The notes beneath the pieces were generated by a model. The model searched no databases. It saw only the letters and a list, made by a program, of their open reading frames with translations, and was not told the DNA's origin. Source: Stakelama portus (GTDB lineage Bacteria; Pseudomonadota; Alphaproteobacteria; Sphingomonadales; Sphingomonadaceae). Taken from it: a DNA stretch of 64,000 nt. This document shows positions 46,797-51,823 of the stretch, piece after piece. The stretch is taken from assembly GCF_003171655.1 (NCBI RefSeq), contig NZ_QFZL01000001.1, forward strand, positions 496,001-560,000. The letters are read 5' to 3'. The position numbers and the translations under genes are program-made. Each line of letters begins with the position of its first letter. The stretch's first letter is position 1.

Positions 46797-48169
46797 GCGC
46801 ATTATGGACTTCCTCCGAAATCGCTGCCGCCACCGGCGGTACGGCATCGGGGGCATTCGCGGTTTCGGGCGTCACCTTCGACAGCCGCGAAGTCGGGCGG
46901 GGCGACTTGTTCCTTGCGCTGAAAGGCGAGGCGACCGACGGCCATCGTTTTCTGGACCAGGCATTTACCCAGGGCGCGGCCGGTGCAGTGGTGAGCGCCG
47001 ATACGCCGCACGCCCATGTCCGCGTCGCCGATACGATGGCTGCGCTCGAGGATCTGGGCCGGGCATCGCGCGCGCGGATGCAGGGCAGGGTGATCGGCGT
47101 AACCGGGTCGGTCGGCAAGACCGGCACCAAGGAAGCGCTGTTCGCCGCGCTCGACCGCCCCGAACCGGGCCGGGCGCATCGCTCGGTCAAAAGCTATAAC
47201 AACCATACCGGCGTGCCGCTCAGCCTTGCCCGCATGCCGCGCGAAACCCGCTTCGGCGTGTTCGAAATGGGAATGAACCATGCCGGCGAACTCGCCGCGC
47301 TGACGCAAATCGTGCGGCCGCATGTCGCGATCGTCACCGCCATCGCCCCCGCGCATACCGAATTCTTCAGGGATGAAAGCGCGATTGCCGATGCCAAGGG
47401 CGAGATTTTCCAGGGGCTGGAATCGGGCGGCACTGCGATCGTTCCGTTCGACAGCCCGCACCGCGACCGGCTGATCGCTGCGGCGCAGCCGCATGCCGCG
47501 CGGATCGTCACCTTCGGCCTTGGCGAAGGGGCCGATGTCCGCGCGATCGAAACGATGCGCACGCGCACCGGCGGCACGTTCGTCACCGCGCGGCTGGGCG
47601 AGCGCGAACTCAGCTTCACATTGTCGCAGCCGGGCGAACATTGGGTTGCCAACGCGATGGCGATCCTTGCCGCTGTCGATGCGGTGGGCAGCGATCTGGA
47701 ACTTGCCGGGCTGGCGCTGGCCGAAATGGGCGGGCTGCCCGGGCGCGGCGCGCGGTTTCTGGCGAAAGTCGATGGCGGCGAAGCGCTGGTGATCGACGAA
47801 AGCTATAACGCCAATCCCGCGTCGATGCGTGCGACGCTGGCCGTGCTGCGCGCCGAACCGGCCGATGCGCGGCGGATCGTCCTGCTCGGCGAAATGCGCG
47901 AACTGGGTGCGGAAAGCGATGCCTATCATGCCGCGCTTGCCGATCCGATTCGCGCCGCCGGGGTGAGCCGTGCCATTTTGGTGGGTGAAGGGATGGCGGC
48001 GCTTGCAAAGGCGCTTGAGGGCCAGATTGATTTCGTCCATGTGCCCGACGCCGCATCCGCGCGGGCGAGCCTGGAATCCATGCTTGCGCCCGGCGATGCG
48101 GTCCTCGTCAAGGGATCGAACGCAGTGGGGCTGGCGAGCGTTGTCGCATCGCTGGCGGGAAGGGGCTAA
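46793..48169 (+). CDS. murF: UDP-MurNAc-tripeptide:D-Ala-D-Ala ligase MurF
   Basis: 458 residues from the ATG at 46793 (ATGA overlap with murE). Mur-ligase motifs: [18 protein letters not shown] loop [26 protein letters not shown], and [11 protein letters not shown]. Adds D-Ala-D-Ala to complete the pentapeptide. TAATG overlap with mraY. Confidence 0.97.
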
Positions 48170-49236
48170 TGCTTTACTGGATCGCGGAGCTGCTGGATTT
48201 TACCGGCGCTTTCAATCTCTTCCGCTATCTTTCCTTCCGCACCGGCGGCGCGGTGGCGACGGCGCTGCTGCTCGGCCTGATCGTCGGCCCGCGTTTCATC
48301 GGCTGGCTGCGCGTCCGTCAGGGCAAGGGGCAACCGATCCGCAGCGACGGCCCGCAAAGCCATCTCGCCAAGCGCGGAACGCCGACCATGGGCGGGCTGA
48401 TGATCCTGACCAGCCTGATGGTGTCGCTGATCCTGTGGATGGACCTCAGCAATCCCTTTGTCTGGGCGTGCATGTTCGTGACGTTCGGTTTCGGAATGAT
48501 CGGGTTCCTCGACGATTATGACAAGGTGCGCAAGGCAAGCACCGCAGGCGTTTCGGGCAAGGTGCGCCTCGCGGGCGAGTTCCTGATCGCCGGCGTCGCG
48601 GCGTGGATCATTACCCAGCAGAACGGGACCGAACTTTACCTGCCGTTCGTCACCCATCGCATCGATCTGGGCCCCTTCTATATCGTCTTCGCCGCTTTCA
48701 CGATCGTGGCGTTCGGCAATGCCGTGAATTTGACCGACGGGCTCGACGGCCTCGCGACCATGCCGGTGATCATCGCCAGCCTGGCGTTCATGATGATCGT
48801 CTATCTGGTCGGCCGCGCGGACTATGCCAGCTATCTTGGCATTCCGCATGTTCCGGGCGCGGGCGATCTTGCCATTTTCTGTGGCGCGATGATCGGGGCA
48901 GGGCTTGCGTTCCTCTGGTTCAACGCCCCTCCGGCCGCGGTGTTCATGGGCGATACCGGCAGCCTCGCATTGGGCGGCGCGCTCGGCGCGATTGCCGTTA
49001 CTTCGCACCATGAAATCGTGCTCGGCATCATCGGCGGCCTGTTCGTGATCGAAGCGATGAGCGTCATCATTCAGGTCTTCTTCTACAAACGGACTGGCAA
49101 GCGCGTGTTCCGCATGGCGCCGATCCACCATCATTTCGAACAACTCGGCTGGAGCGAACCCACGGTGGTGATCCGTTTCTGGATCATTGCCTTTGTTCTG
49201 GCGCTGGCGGGGCTTTCCACACTCAAGCTGCGATGA
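48169..49236 (+). CDS. mraY: Phospho-MurNAc-pentapeptide transferase MraY
   Basis: 355 residues, ten transmembrane helices; makes lipid I at the inner membrane. Conserved blocks: [20 protein letters not shown] (DDxxD-like), [25 protein letters not shown], and [14 protein letters not shown] overlaps the murF TAA. Confidence 0.98.
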
Positions 49237-50603
49237 TCACGAGCACGACCTGGAGCGGAAAACGCTACGCCGTGCTGGGGCTGGCACGCTCCGGGCAAGC
49301 GAGCGTGGCTGCGCTGCTGGCAAGCGGGGCGCGGGTTGTTGCGTGGGACAATAGCGAGGAACGGCGTGAAGCCACCCGTTCGTCCCGAGCGCAGTCGAGG
49401 GACGGGGCGCACGGCCAACGTGTCTCGACTTCGCTCGACACAAACGGTTCGTTGGAGCTTGCCGACCCACTCGAAACCGATCTCTCCGGCTTTGCGGGCG
49501 TCGTCGTTTCCCCCGGCGTGCCGATCAATCGCCACCCGATTGCCGCGCATGCCGCAGCAGCAGGCGTTCCGCTGATCGGCGACATCGAGCTCTTCGCACA
49601 GGCGCGCGCCGAACTCCCGGCGCACAAGGTCGTCGGTATCACCGGCACCAACGGCAAATCGACCACGACCGCGTTGATCCACCACATCCTCGACAGCGCC
49701 GGCATCTCCGCACGGATGGGCGGCAATATCGGCCTGCCGATCCTCGGACAGGAGCCGCTGACGCCAAATGACAACGGCGCCGGCGTCTATGTCCTCGAAC
49801 TGTCGAGCTATCAGATCGATCTGACCCAGAGCCTCGATTGCGATGTCGCGGTGCTGACCAACATCACCCCCGATCATCTCGATCGCTACGCCGGATTCGA
49901 CGCCTATGCCGCGTCCAAGGCACGGCTGTTCGCGATGCAGTCGCCCGATCATGCCGCGATCATCGGCATCGGCGACATCCCCTCGGCCAATATCGCGCGA
50001 AACCTCGCAAAATCTGGCCGGTCGGAGGCGCTGACCAAGATCGCGCCCGGCGTCTGTATGGATCAGTCGCGCTGGCCGAGCCTGCAAGGGCCGCACAACG
50101 CGCAGAACGCACTCGCTGCGATCGCCGCGTGCGAAGCGTTGGGCCTGTCGCGCGACGCGATTGATGCAGGGCTGGAAAGCTTCCCCGGCCTGCCGCACCG
50201 GATGGAGCGGCTCGGCGTCCATAAGGGGCTGCTCTGGGTCAATGACAGCAAGGCGACCAACCCGACCAGCACCGCGCCCGCGCTGCAGGCCTTTGGTCGC
50301 ATCCACTGGATCCTGGGCGGGCAGGCCAAGACGGATGATCTGGAGGCGTGCCGCCCCGGCTTCGGTAATGTGGTACAGGCCTATACAATCGGCGAAGCCG
50401 CCGAATTGTTCGAAACGCTGCTGCGCCCGGAAATGCCGGTGGCGCGCGTCGATACGCTCGACGCAGCGGTGCATGCGGCGCTGACCGTTGCGCAGCCCGG
50501 TGATACCGTGCTGCTCTCGCCCGCCTGCGCCTCGTTCGACCAGTTTCGCGACTTCGAAGCGCGCGGCGATGCGTTTCGCGCGCTGGTGGAGGGGCTGGAG
50601 TGA
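49233..50603 (+). CDS. murD: UDP-MurNAc-alanine:D-glutamate ligase MurD, with in-frame repeat insertion
   Basis: 456 residues. The core is standard: GLARSGQAS dinucleotide loop, VVSPGVP, ATP loop [34 protein letters not shown], and C-terminal [12 protein letters not shown]. Between WDNSEE and ELADPLE the usual short linker is replaced by about 24-28 Arg/Ser-rich residues encoded by a palindromic repeat (49376-49447). The frame is kept and all catalytic motifs lie downstream, so the enzyme should be functional. GTGA overlap with ftsW. Confidence 0.96.
49376..49447. repeat. Palindromic REP-like element inside murD
   Basis: Arm 1 (49376-49403) and the reverse complement of arm 2 (49420-49447) match at about 23 of 28 positions, both starting CCGTT and centred on CGAGCG-AGTCGAG, with a 16-bp spacer. 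The element is 72 bp (24 codons), so the frame is preserved. I associate this GTCGAGCGAAGTCGAG-type palindrome with dispersed intergenic repeats in sphingomonads (recalled, not searched). Confidence 0.8.
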
Positions 50604-51823
50604 GCGATATGGCGGAACAGGCACCCAAGGGCTTTCGCAGCCGTGTCGCCCAGCAAATGGGCCGCACCGGCCGCTCGCCTGCGGGCATGTGGTTCTGGGA
50701 AATCGATCGCGTGCTGCTGCTGCTGGCGCTGTCGCTGATGGCGATCGGCCTGATCGCGGTTGCGGCGGCTTCGCCTGCCACGGCGCATCGCTATTCGGGC
50801 GGATCGGTGACGATTCCGCCGATGTATTATTTCTGGCGACAGGTGGCCTGGGTGGCGGTGTCGGTGCCGGTGATGCTGATCGTTTCGATGCTGCCGATCC
50901 GCTTTGCGCGGCGCTGCTCGCTGATCGGCGCCGCGATCTTCTTCGTGCTGCTCGCCGCGACGCCGTTTCTGGGTGCGGAAGTCAATGGCGCGAAACGGTG
51001 GATCGATCTTGGCGTGTCCGAGCTTCAGCCGTCCGAATTTCTGAAACCGCTGTTCATTGTCGCGATTGCTTGGCTGTTGTCGTTCCGGGCAAAGGATCCG
51101 CAGCTTCCCGTGCTGTTCATCACCGGCGCTCTAACCGCGTGTATCGCCGCGCTGTTGATGATGCAGCCCGATTTCGGCCAGACGATCGTGTTCGTCCTGG
51201 TCTGGCTGGTGCTGCTGTTGCTTTCGGGGGTTTCGGCCACTGCGATCGCAGGGCTGATGGCCAGCGGGGTCGGCTGCGTCGTCGCCGCCTATCTGTTTTA
51301 CGATACTGCCCGGATCCGCATCGACAGCTTCCTTTTTCCCGACAAGGAAAAGGCGCTGGCCGAACATTATCAGACCGATATGGCGCATGCGACGCTGACG
51401 GCGGGCGGGGCGACGGGCACCGGGCCGGGCGGCGGGACGTTCAAATTCCGTCTCCCAGAGGCACATAATGATTATATTTTCTCGGTCGTAGGCGAGGAAT
51501 TCGGGCTTATCACCTGTGGGGTGATTGCGATTCTCTATCTCGCCATCGTCGTGCGGGTGGTGATGAAACTCATTGACGAGGAAGACGCTTTTCGCCTTCT
51601 CGCCGCTGCCGGCCTTGCCGCGCAGTTCGGCGTGCAGGCGCTGATCAACATGGCGGTGAACACGGGGCTTGCGCCGTCCAAGGGCATGACGCTGCCGTTC
51701 ATCAGCTATGGCGGCTCTTCCATGATCGCGCTGTCGGTCGGGTTCGGACTGCTGCTCGCATTCACGCGCAGGAACCCGTATCTGACGCGCTCACCCTATA
51801 CCGTGCGCGGGAGCGGTTCATGA
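50600..51823 (+). CDS. ftsW: Septal peptidoglycan glycosyltransferase FtsW
   Basis: 407 residues, about ten transmembrane helices, SEDS family. Conserved [18 protein letters not shown], and [22 protein letters not shown] near the end. Polymerises septal glycan from lipid II together with FtsI. GTG start (GTGA overlap with murD); ATG at 50609 is an alternative. Confidence 0.97.

Follow-up and report, generated by a model that had tools for sequence, protein, structure and literature searches.

A palindromic element in frame within murD

The host gene, murD, occupies positions 49233..50603 (+ strand) of the window, by which we mean the whole 64,000-nucleotide stretch of Stakelama portus DNA that was analyzed, and encodes UDP-N-acetylmuramoyl-L-alanine--D-glutamate ligase in one uninterrupted frame of 456 amino acids. 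This frame scores 369.9 bits against the NCBIfam murD model TIGR01087 (cut-off 211.95), and E. coli MurD was the first match in a Foldseek search with the model structure. The frames on either side, at 48169..49236 (+) and 50600..51823 (+), each overlap murD by 4 bases and are, judging by gene order, presumably mraY and ftsW.

Inside murD lies a 72-bp palindromic element (49376..49447), a REP-like hetero-dimer of a repeat family that we call family A, which contributes 24 residues to MurD, beginning at base 3 of codon 48 and ending at base 2 of codon 72. It consists of a 29-nt left arm of the GTCCC/GGGAC type (49376..49404), a 14-nt spacer (49405..49418), and an inverted 29-nt right arm of the GTGTC/GACAC type (49419..49447), all annotated without strand; the murD copy is 6 nt shorter than the commonest copies of 78 bp. 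A previous sequence-only reading had described inverted arms of about 28 bp and a repeat-derived peptide read in frame, and both descriptions hold, with the arm length corrected by one nucleotide. The predicted folding energy of the element as a single strand is −42.2 kcal/mol, whereas 200 dinucleotide shuffles gave −25.09 (sd 3) and none equalled it (z = −5.70). An exact-seed inverted-repeat finder reported no inverted pair here because the arms are imperfect, and an Rfam search of positions 49200-49700 with E up to 1 gave no match. The LGLARSG motif lies upstream of the element in the same frame, so the element cannot be accounted for by a start codon further downstream. The interval between the WD and SPG motifs of this murD is 55 residues, and subtracting 24 leaves 31, one below the commonest length (32 residues, in 21 of 118 murD); a native codon or two may therefore have been lost, or the element ends may be off by a few bases.

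An AlphaFold2 model of the window MurD, built with 43 aligned MurD sequences, has a mean pLDDT of 90, and its sole segment under 50, residues 58-68, falls within the insert. The insert forms a predicted loop between a helix (residues 42-56, extending into the insert) and a strand (73-76) of the N-terminal domain. The low score is a weak sign that the loop may be disordered, since few aligned rows cover the insert. The surface linker proposed earlier is thus borne out by the model as a low-confidence loop from helix to strand in the first domain, and its surface exposure is presumed.

Family A elsewhere in the genome

That the element resembles a dispersed palindrome, as had been suggested, is confirmed by BLAST in its own 3.85-Mb genome, where 27 matches correspond by hand count to 21 distinct places (6 matches are the second strand of a place), 20 of them in addition to murD. 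The murD copy is the only one within the window. Matches spanning the element measure 68-79 bp, with 78 bp the commonest length, and 16 of 19 copies read by eye join one GTCCC/GGGAC-type arm to one GTGTC/GACAC-type arm; the exceptions are L245, L246, which is cut, and L247. Ten of the 21 places lie 7-40 nt past the stop codon of the best-scoring + strand frame, a distance computed only where the best-scoring frame is on that strand.

Five of the 21 places, murD included, are intragenic and in frame. Extending the sequence-only reading, the same element occurs in four further places in long frames: twice in rnr, once in hrpB (a helicase), and once in glyS (glycyl-tRNA synthetase beta subunit). 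A place was counted when a long frame was open through the element and the same frame had the best coding score on both sides, frames merely open through the element being left out; murD itself failed the left-hand score, its left side being short and overlapping mraY, and rests on homology. HrpB and glyS exceed their model cut-offs, and RNase R scores 597.0 against 597.85 but exceeds a superfamily cut-off. The two rnr elements (L002 and L243, at G000:C16:167074 and 167611) lie in frame 0.5 kb apart in one RNase R gene, and the one at 167074 sits at the recurrent rnr site described below.

The murD loop across sphingomonads

The murD loci were drawn from the best 80 of 562 named genomes, from a set of 30 loci, and from regions up to 19.5 kb. 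Of the 170 loci read (L011-L180), 167 yielded a MurD frame; the two motifs shared a frame in 159, among which there were 118 distinct genes. The strict motif rule cost L088, which is short, and L170, which carries a D insert, and L179 was dropped as a fragment. Eight loci had no N-terminal motif in the same frame by this rule: L165 and L166, which are in fact short; L082, L103, L117, L173, and L178, which lie at contig ends; and L071, discussed below.

In the 118 distinct murD genes the WD-to-SPG interval is sharply bimodal, with 31-48 residues in 77, 55-109 in 41, and nothing between, so that insert-free intervals also vary in length. A fold z below −3 (40 shuffles each) was found for 38 of the 41 long intervals and for 1 of the 77 short ones (L047, −3.01). 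The long intervals above this threshold were L020 (−2.88), L044 (−2.83), and that of the window (−1.7 for the whole interval, compared with −5.7 for the element by itself).

By script, the 41 inserts fall into classes C (17), B (11), D (9), A (2), and other (2; L048 and L055). In local alignments against shuffles, B and C came out as versions of a single type (z 13 to 20), D was weakly similar to B/C in a G-rich core (z 1.2 to 6.2), L055 reached z 6.4 with one D, and A showed no similarity above shuffles to B, C, D, L048, or L055 (z at most 0.5). The kinship of B with C and the weak likeness of D mean that there are fewer independent types than the class names imply; treating B, C, and D as unrelated is ruled out by these alignments. 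The murD inserts comprise at least three separable types, A, B/C, and D, so that the murD site, beyond what had been noted before, is common to several kinds of repeat. The second A case is in Sphingobium boeckii (L042); its MurD shares 66% identity with that of the window, and the case probably represents an independent insertion. Further palindromes are nested within the inserts of L037, L134, and L138.

Several of these repeats are dispersed in their own right. With about 14 candidates scored per genome, matches were found among 61 genus genomes in 30 for family A, 46 for family C, and 55 for family D, the last being a dispersed repeat on its own account. Outside murD, 3 of 26 family C copies from two genomes lie in frame: one in valS, one close to the N-terminus of gcvPB, and one in a gene for a 2-oxoacid dehydrogenase E2 component, which scores under the cut-off with all 11 of its models.

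The expectation that most relatives would lack the segment is supported by the 77 of 118 sphingomonad murD without it and by the wider family, for which 119 genomes were listed: 2 were already in the set, 88 were fetched and 29 were not, and 12 of the 88 were unreadable. Among the 76 readable loci, 67 have intervals of 32-46 residues and 9, from 7 genus codes, have at least 55, one of the latter (L344) being the same record as L042. Rather than carrying the same segment encoded by unrelated DNA throughout the order, 52 of the 76 have an interval of 32-33 residues. A few records merit separate mention. The interval of L350 is 46 residues long and includes the repeat-like peptide PSGEGPGVGPH, perhaps what remains of an insert that decayed. 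The murD of L022, L064, L092, and L098 have longer palindrome-free intervals with a VQEL-like stretch common to distant species, possibly old domesticated inserts. L056 is titled Microvirga sp. SRT01, a name that looks wrong: its MurD is sphingomonad-like and has an insert of class D. In G059, murD lies near both ends of one 3.67-Mb contig (G059:C1:10429-11814 and 3658370-3659755), which is probably an untrimmed circular overlap.

It is hardly conceivable that the inserts are artefacts of assembly or frame assignment. In G053 (C7/C8) and G056 (C6/C7), contig ends close to the insert do divide murD, in L082 a contig begins with the gene, and in L071 it is frame-shifted at the insert. Against this, the window lies on a 1.16-Mb contig, inserts occur in the single-contig genomes G020, G032, and G153, and all 41 long genes are open through the insert, a set that admitted only one-frame genes and so leaves L071 and split genes outside it. 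In L071 (locus 1501-2810) a C-type insert appears collapsed, with a frame shift and a stop, which is either an assembly error or real damage. The breaks in G053, G056, and L082 raise the possibility that such repeats cut short-read assemblies within an essential gene.

The inserts begin at closely similar points. In the 40 cases with a rule, the recognized core starts 10.3-15.3 codons past the start of the WD tryptophan codon, a distance that refers to recognized sequence, the true element ends possibly lying elsewhere; L048 matched none of the rules, and in L102, L055, and L029 the right junction could not be placed by rule. The starts cluster tightly by type, at 10.3-10.7 codons for D (9/9) and 12-13 for C (17/17), as would be expected if a mobilizing enzyme read a DNA motif at this point in murD. 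We consider such site-specific insertion improbable, because the starts differ between types and spread from 11.3 to 15.3 codons in B, a common flank was not seen by eye, and without motif statistics, in 19 A and 26 C copies, and a search for RAYT-type transposases (PF01797, Y1_Tnp) found no match in the window's own genome and matches in only 4 of 61 genomes.

Probable recurrent entry and possible loss of the insert

The distribution of inserts was compared with a tree built by a quick method from seven other dcw genes of 58 genomes (40 of 55 inner branches starred, 9 open); the set excludes L145, and the regions of G007 and G034 were never fetched. States were assigned to 56 genomes, 37 without and 19 with an insert, and L173 and L178 have no state. 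Inserted and short genomes stand side by side on this tree. The fewest changes needed are 15 for insert versus none and 17 when types are distinguished, still 17 with B and C merged, counts that carry no direction of gain or loss. One clade with end branches of 0.009-0.014 contains C in L142 and D in L152 and L174.

A single ancient insertion followed by strong divergence and many lineage losses could draw on the relatedness of B and C, on the lack of direction in parsimony, and on the sharing of the insert within single clades, where it is probably inherited. The murD copies of the C clade differ less among themselves than from the other copies in their own genomes (0.045 versus 0.099 for L113; 0.086 versus 0.153 for L112), which favours inheritance at this level. 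For the site as a whole we nonetheless regard one ancient insertion as very improbable: A is unrelated to the other types, 67 of the 76 readable wider-family genomes have intervals of 32-46 residues, a single gain would need 26 losses (midpoint root) compared with 15 changes, and close relatives carry C and D, each of them separately a dispersed repeat. The murD sites of sphingomonads favour recurrent insertion, and most of the changes on the tree are probably gains.

Inserts may be lost through internal deletions that leave brief in-frame scars. This is suggested by L047, in which only the outer stem of a D element remains, and by short, possibly derived stretches at the insert site in L128, L060, and L080.

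Sequence evolution of the insert

In the C clade (7 murD), the proportion of synonymous differences (pS) is 0.109 in the insert, compared with 0.550 and 0.514 in the adjoining codons, and none of the 118 overlapping windows of that size taken from other parts of the gene falls so low (minimum 0.166, median 0.322). The corresponding nonsynonymous values are 0.042 for the insert and 0.089 and 0.041 for its flanks. The D clade (3 genes) behaves alike: pS is 0.035 in the insert, while the windows have a minimum of 0.084 and a median of 0.236. The insert has a dN/dS ratio of 0.36 in C and 0.64 in D, above the 0.08 and 0.10 of the remaining murD sequence, suggesting that the peptide is not strongly constrained although its DNA changes little.

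Change is unevenly spread along the C-clade element, with variable sites at 3 of 73 positions in the arms and 11 of 28 in the spacer. By eye, the arms are near-constant among other genomic and intergenic copies as well, which argues against a cause specific to murD. The low synonymous change means that plain neutrality is insufficient as an explanation, and gene conversion between copies, re-insertion, or constraint on the hairpin could each account for it.

Relation to known palindromic repeats

Family A resembles REP/BIME sequences in being dispersed (21 places in its own genome), in its organization, since such repeats are 20-40-nt imperfect palindromes in inverted pairs and family A has two 29-nt arms with paired types in 16 of 19 copies, and in its mostly extragenic position near gene 3' ends (10 of 21 at 7-40 nt past a stop). 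The parts of Di Nocera 2013 (PMC3733652) used here describe GTAG/CGTC-tagged REP dimers in Alphaproteobacteria that are mostly intergenic near gene 3' ends, with some intragenic, among them copies in tRNA synthetases of E. lithoralis and S. alaskensis. They report CGTC REPs without a transposase, and different REPs at about the same site in recB of X. campestris and X. oryzae. As characterized there, a CGTC REP has an unpaired CGTC tag, an 8-9-bp stem starting from A-T pairs, a 4-5-nt loop, and a tail that is mostly CCA. Compared with that description, family A has neither an unpaired CGTC tag nor an A-T stem start; by inspection its CGTC lies within a stem, CGTCCC/GGGACG, and its outer ends are CCGTT/AACGG. 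The parts of PMC3733652 used here do not name murD. RAYT mobilization as the current means of spread is unsupported by the PF01797 search described above (0 in the own genome, 4/61 genomes).

In-frame palindromes are known from Rickettsia, according to the portions of PMC10969869 and PMC2229807 that treat them. In the excerpted parts of the R. japonica paper (PMC3767692), some orthologues hold different groups of RPE-4/6/7 near each other, and hotspots or one diverged insertion are considered, with a common origin favoured and hotspots called "not negligible"; a guanylate kinase carrying an RPE is, according to sections of PMC2229807, active with changed affinity. The likeness to RPE, drawn from such descriptions and not from RPE sequence, lies in dispersed palindromes read in frame in housekeeping and other conserved genes (A in murD, rnr twice, hrpB, and glyS; C in valS, E2, and gcvPB). 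The sphingomonad case differs in that the hosts are free-living and that close relatives alternate between short sites and plainly distinct repeats. A further comparison is with MITEs, which the relevant parts of PMC10969869 describe as short repeats with inverted ends, non-autonomous and able to form in-frame fusions with genes. Inspection of the flanks of families A and C by eye, without statistics, showed no target-site duplication, and a parent transposon was sought by the PF01797 search only.

The element is thus best described as a REP-like dimer that acts like an RPE at a recurrently used loop. A literature search of titles and abstract openings, with most subscription papers beyond reach, returned no description of an insert in sphingomonad murD. 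The Rickettsia question of hotspots versus one old diverged insertion, as posed in the excerpted parts of PMC3767692, becomes directly testable here, because different types in one loop and alternating short sites in close relatives make recurrent entry visible. These genes offer, in free-living hosts, a whole series of natural experiments on the remodelling of core proteins by selfish repeats, on which loops tolerate them, and on mobility without a known transposase.

Presumed tolerant loops in murD, rnr, and glyS

As a control, the same inter-anchor interval test was applied across eleven dcw genes. The murD interval is at least 15 residues above its minimum in 27 of 57 genomes, some of these being longer insert-free loops. 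In murE, murF, ftsW, murG, murC, and ddl, the test found no interval with a spread of at least 12 residues. One ftsI interval varies with a spread of 14, individual genomes show longer stretches in mraY, murB is extended at its N-terminus in 5 of 54 and carries a stretch of 17 residues in 2, and the ftsZ linker is variable throughout. Within the dcw cluster, murD is the sole frequent site in a folded part, though not the sole irregularity.

Outside the cluster there are comparable cases, and murD is one of several recurrently entered sites. Around the second rnr insert of the window's genome, the interval ranges from 21 to 74 residues in 30 loci, with A, B/C, and D types recognizable by eye. 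In glyS, the stretch from KLARW to the next conserved block is 50-85 residues in 27 of 27 aligned loci. Many repeat peptides can be recognized in it, including type A in the genome of the window as well as B/C and D, so that the murD pattern recurs with a still wider range of repeats. These loci (L284-L313) are the best 30 by score to an insert-carrying query, which biases them toward inserted genes, and 3 of the 30 failed. In 16 genomes the flanking glyS matches nearly touch (gap ≤18 nt), leaving no space for an insert. A second glyS interval, closer to the C-terminus, is at least 15 residues above its minimum in 15 of 27, and unalignable sequence at reference residue ~597 was not counted.

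One could suppose a selected function, in which an mRNA hairpin or the peptide is useful, so that suitably shaped repeats of any kind are taken up and retained. The variety of repeat types at a single place in murD, arms conserved at synonymous sites, and the presence of an insert in 27 of 27 glyS among the best-scoring loci would all agree with this. We think it unlikely, given that 77 of 118 murD do without the insert in a pattern that is patchy among close relatives, that glyS has no room for one in at least 16 genomes, that the remainder of murD has a lower dN/dS than the insert, and that the arms are near-constant among intergenic copies too, as judged by eye. A related and likewise doubtful proposition is that the murD, rnr, and glyS loops are standing docking sites where families turn over and hairpins are kept because the host uses a structured insert. 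If true, a structured insert in the transcript or protein would be used by the host, and hairpins would be held against synonymous drift.

The most likely explanation is that mobile repeats repeatedly fill a few tolerant loops of core proteins. For murD in particular, we put at roughly 0.7 the probability that a REP-like palindromic dimer inserted and was retained thanks to its open reading frame, its length in whole codons, and its landing in a disordered loop. A copy of the dispersed family would have inserted into the gene at the predicted disordered loop between helix 42-56 and strand 73-76 of the N-terminal domain, and its open frame and length in multiples of three would have allowed it to be kept. 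Recurrence would then reflect a high insertion rate filtered by tolerance at very few positions, and inserts may be lost again by internal deletion to short in-frame scars. MurD is probably made and working with the added peptide, which would be neutral or nearly so. The glyS KLARW site, with many repeats at one point in 27 of 27 loci, is perhaps a better case than murD.
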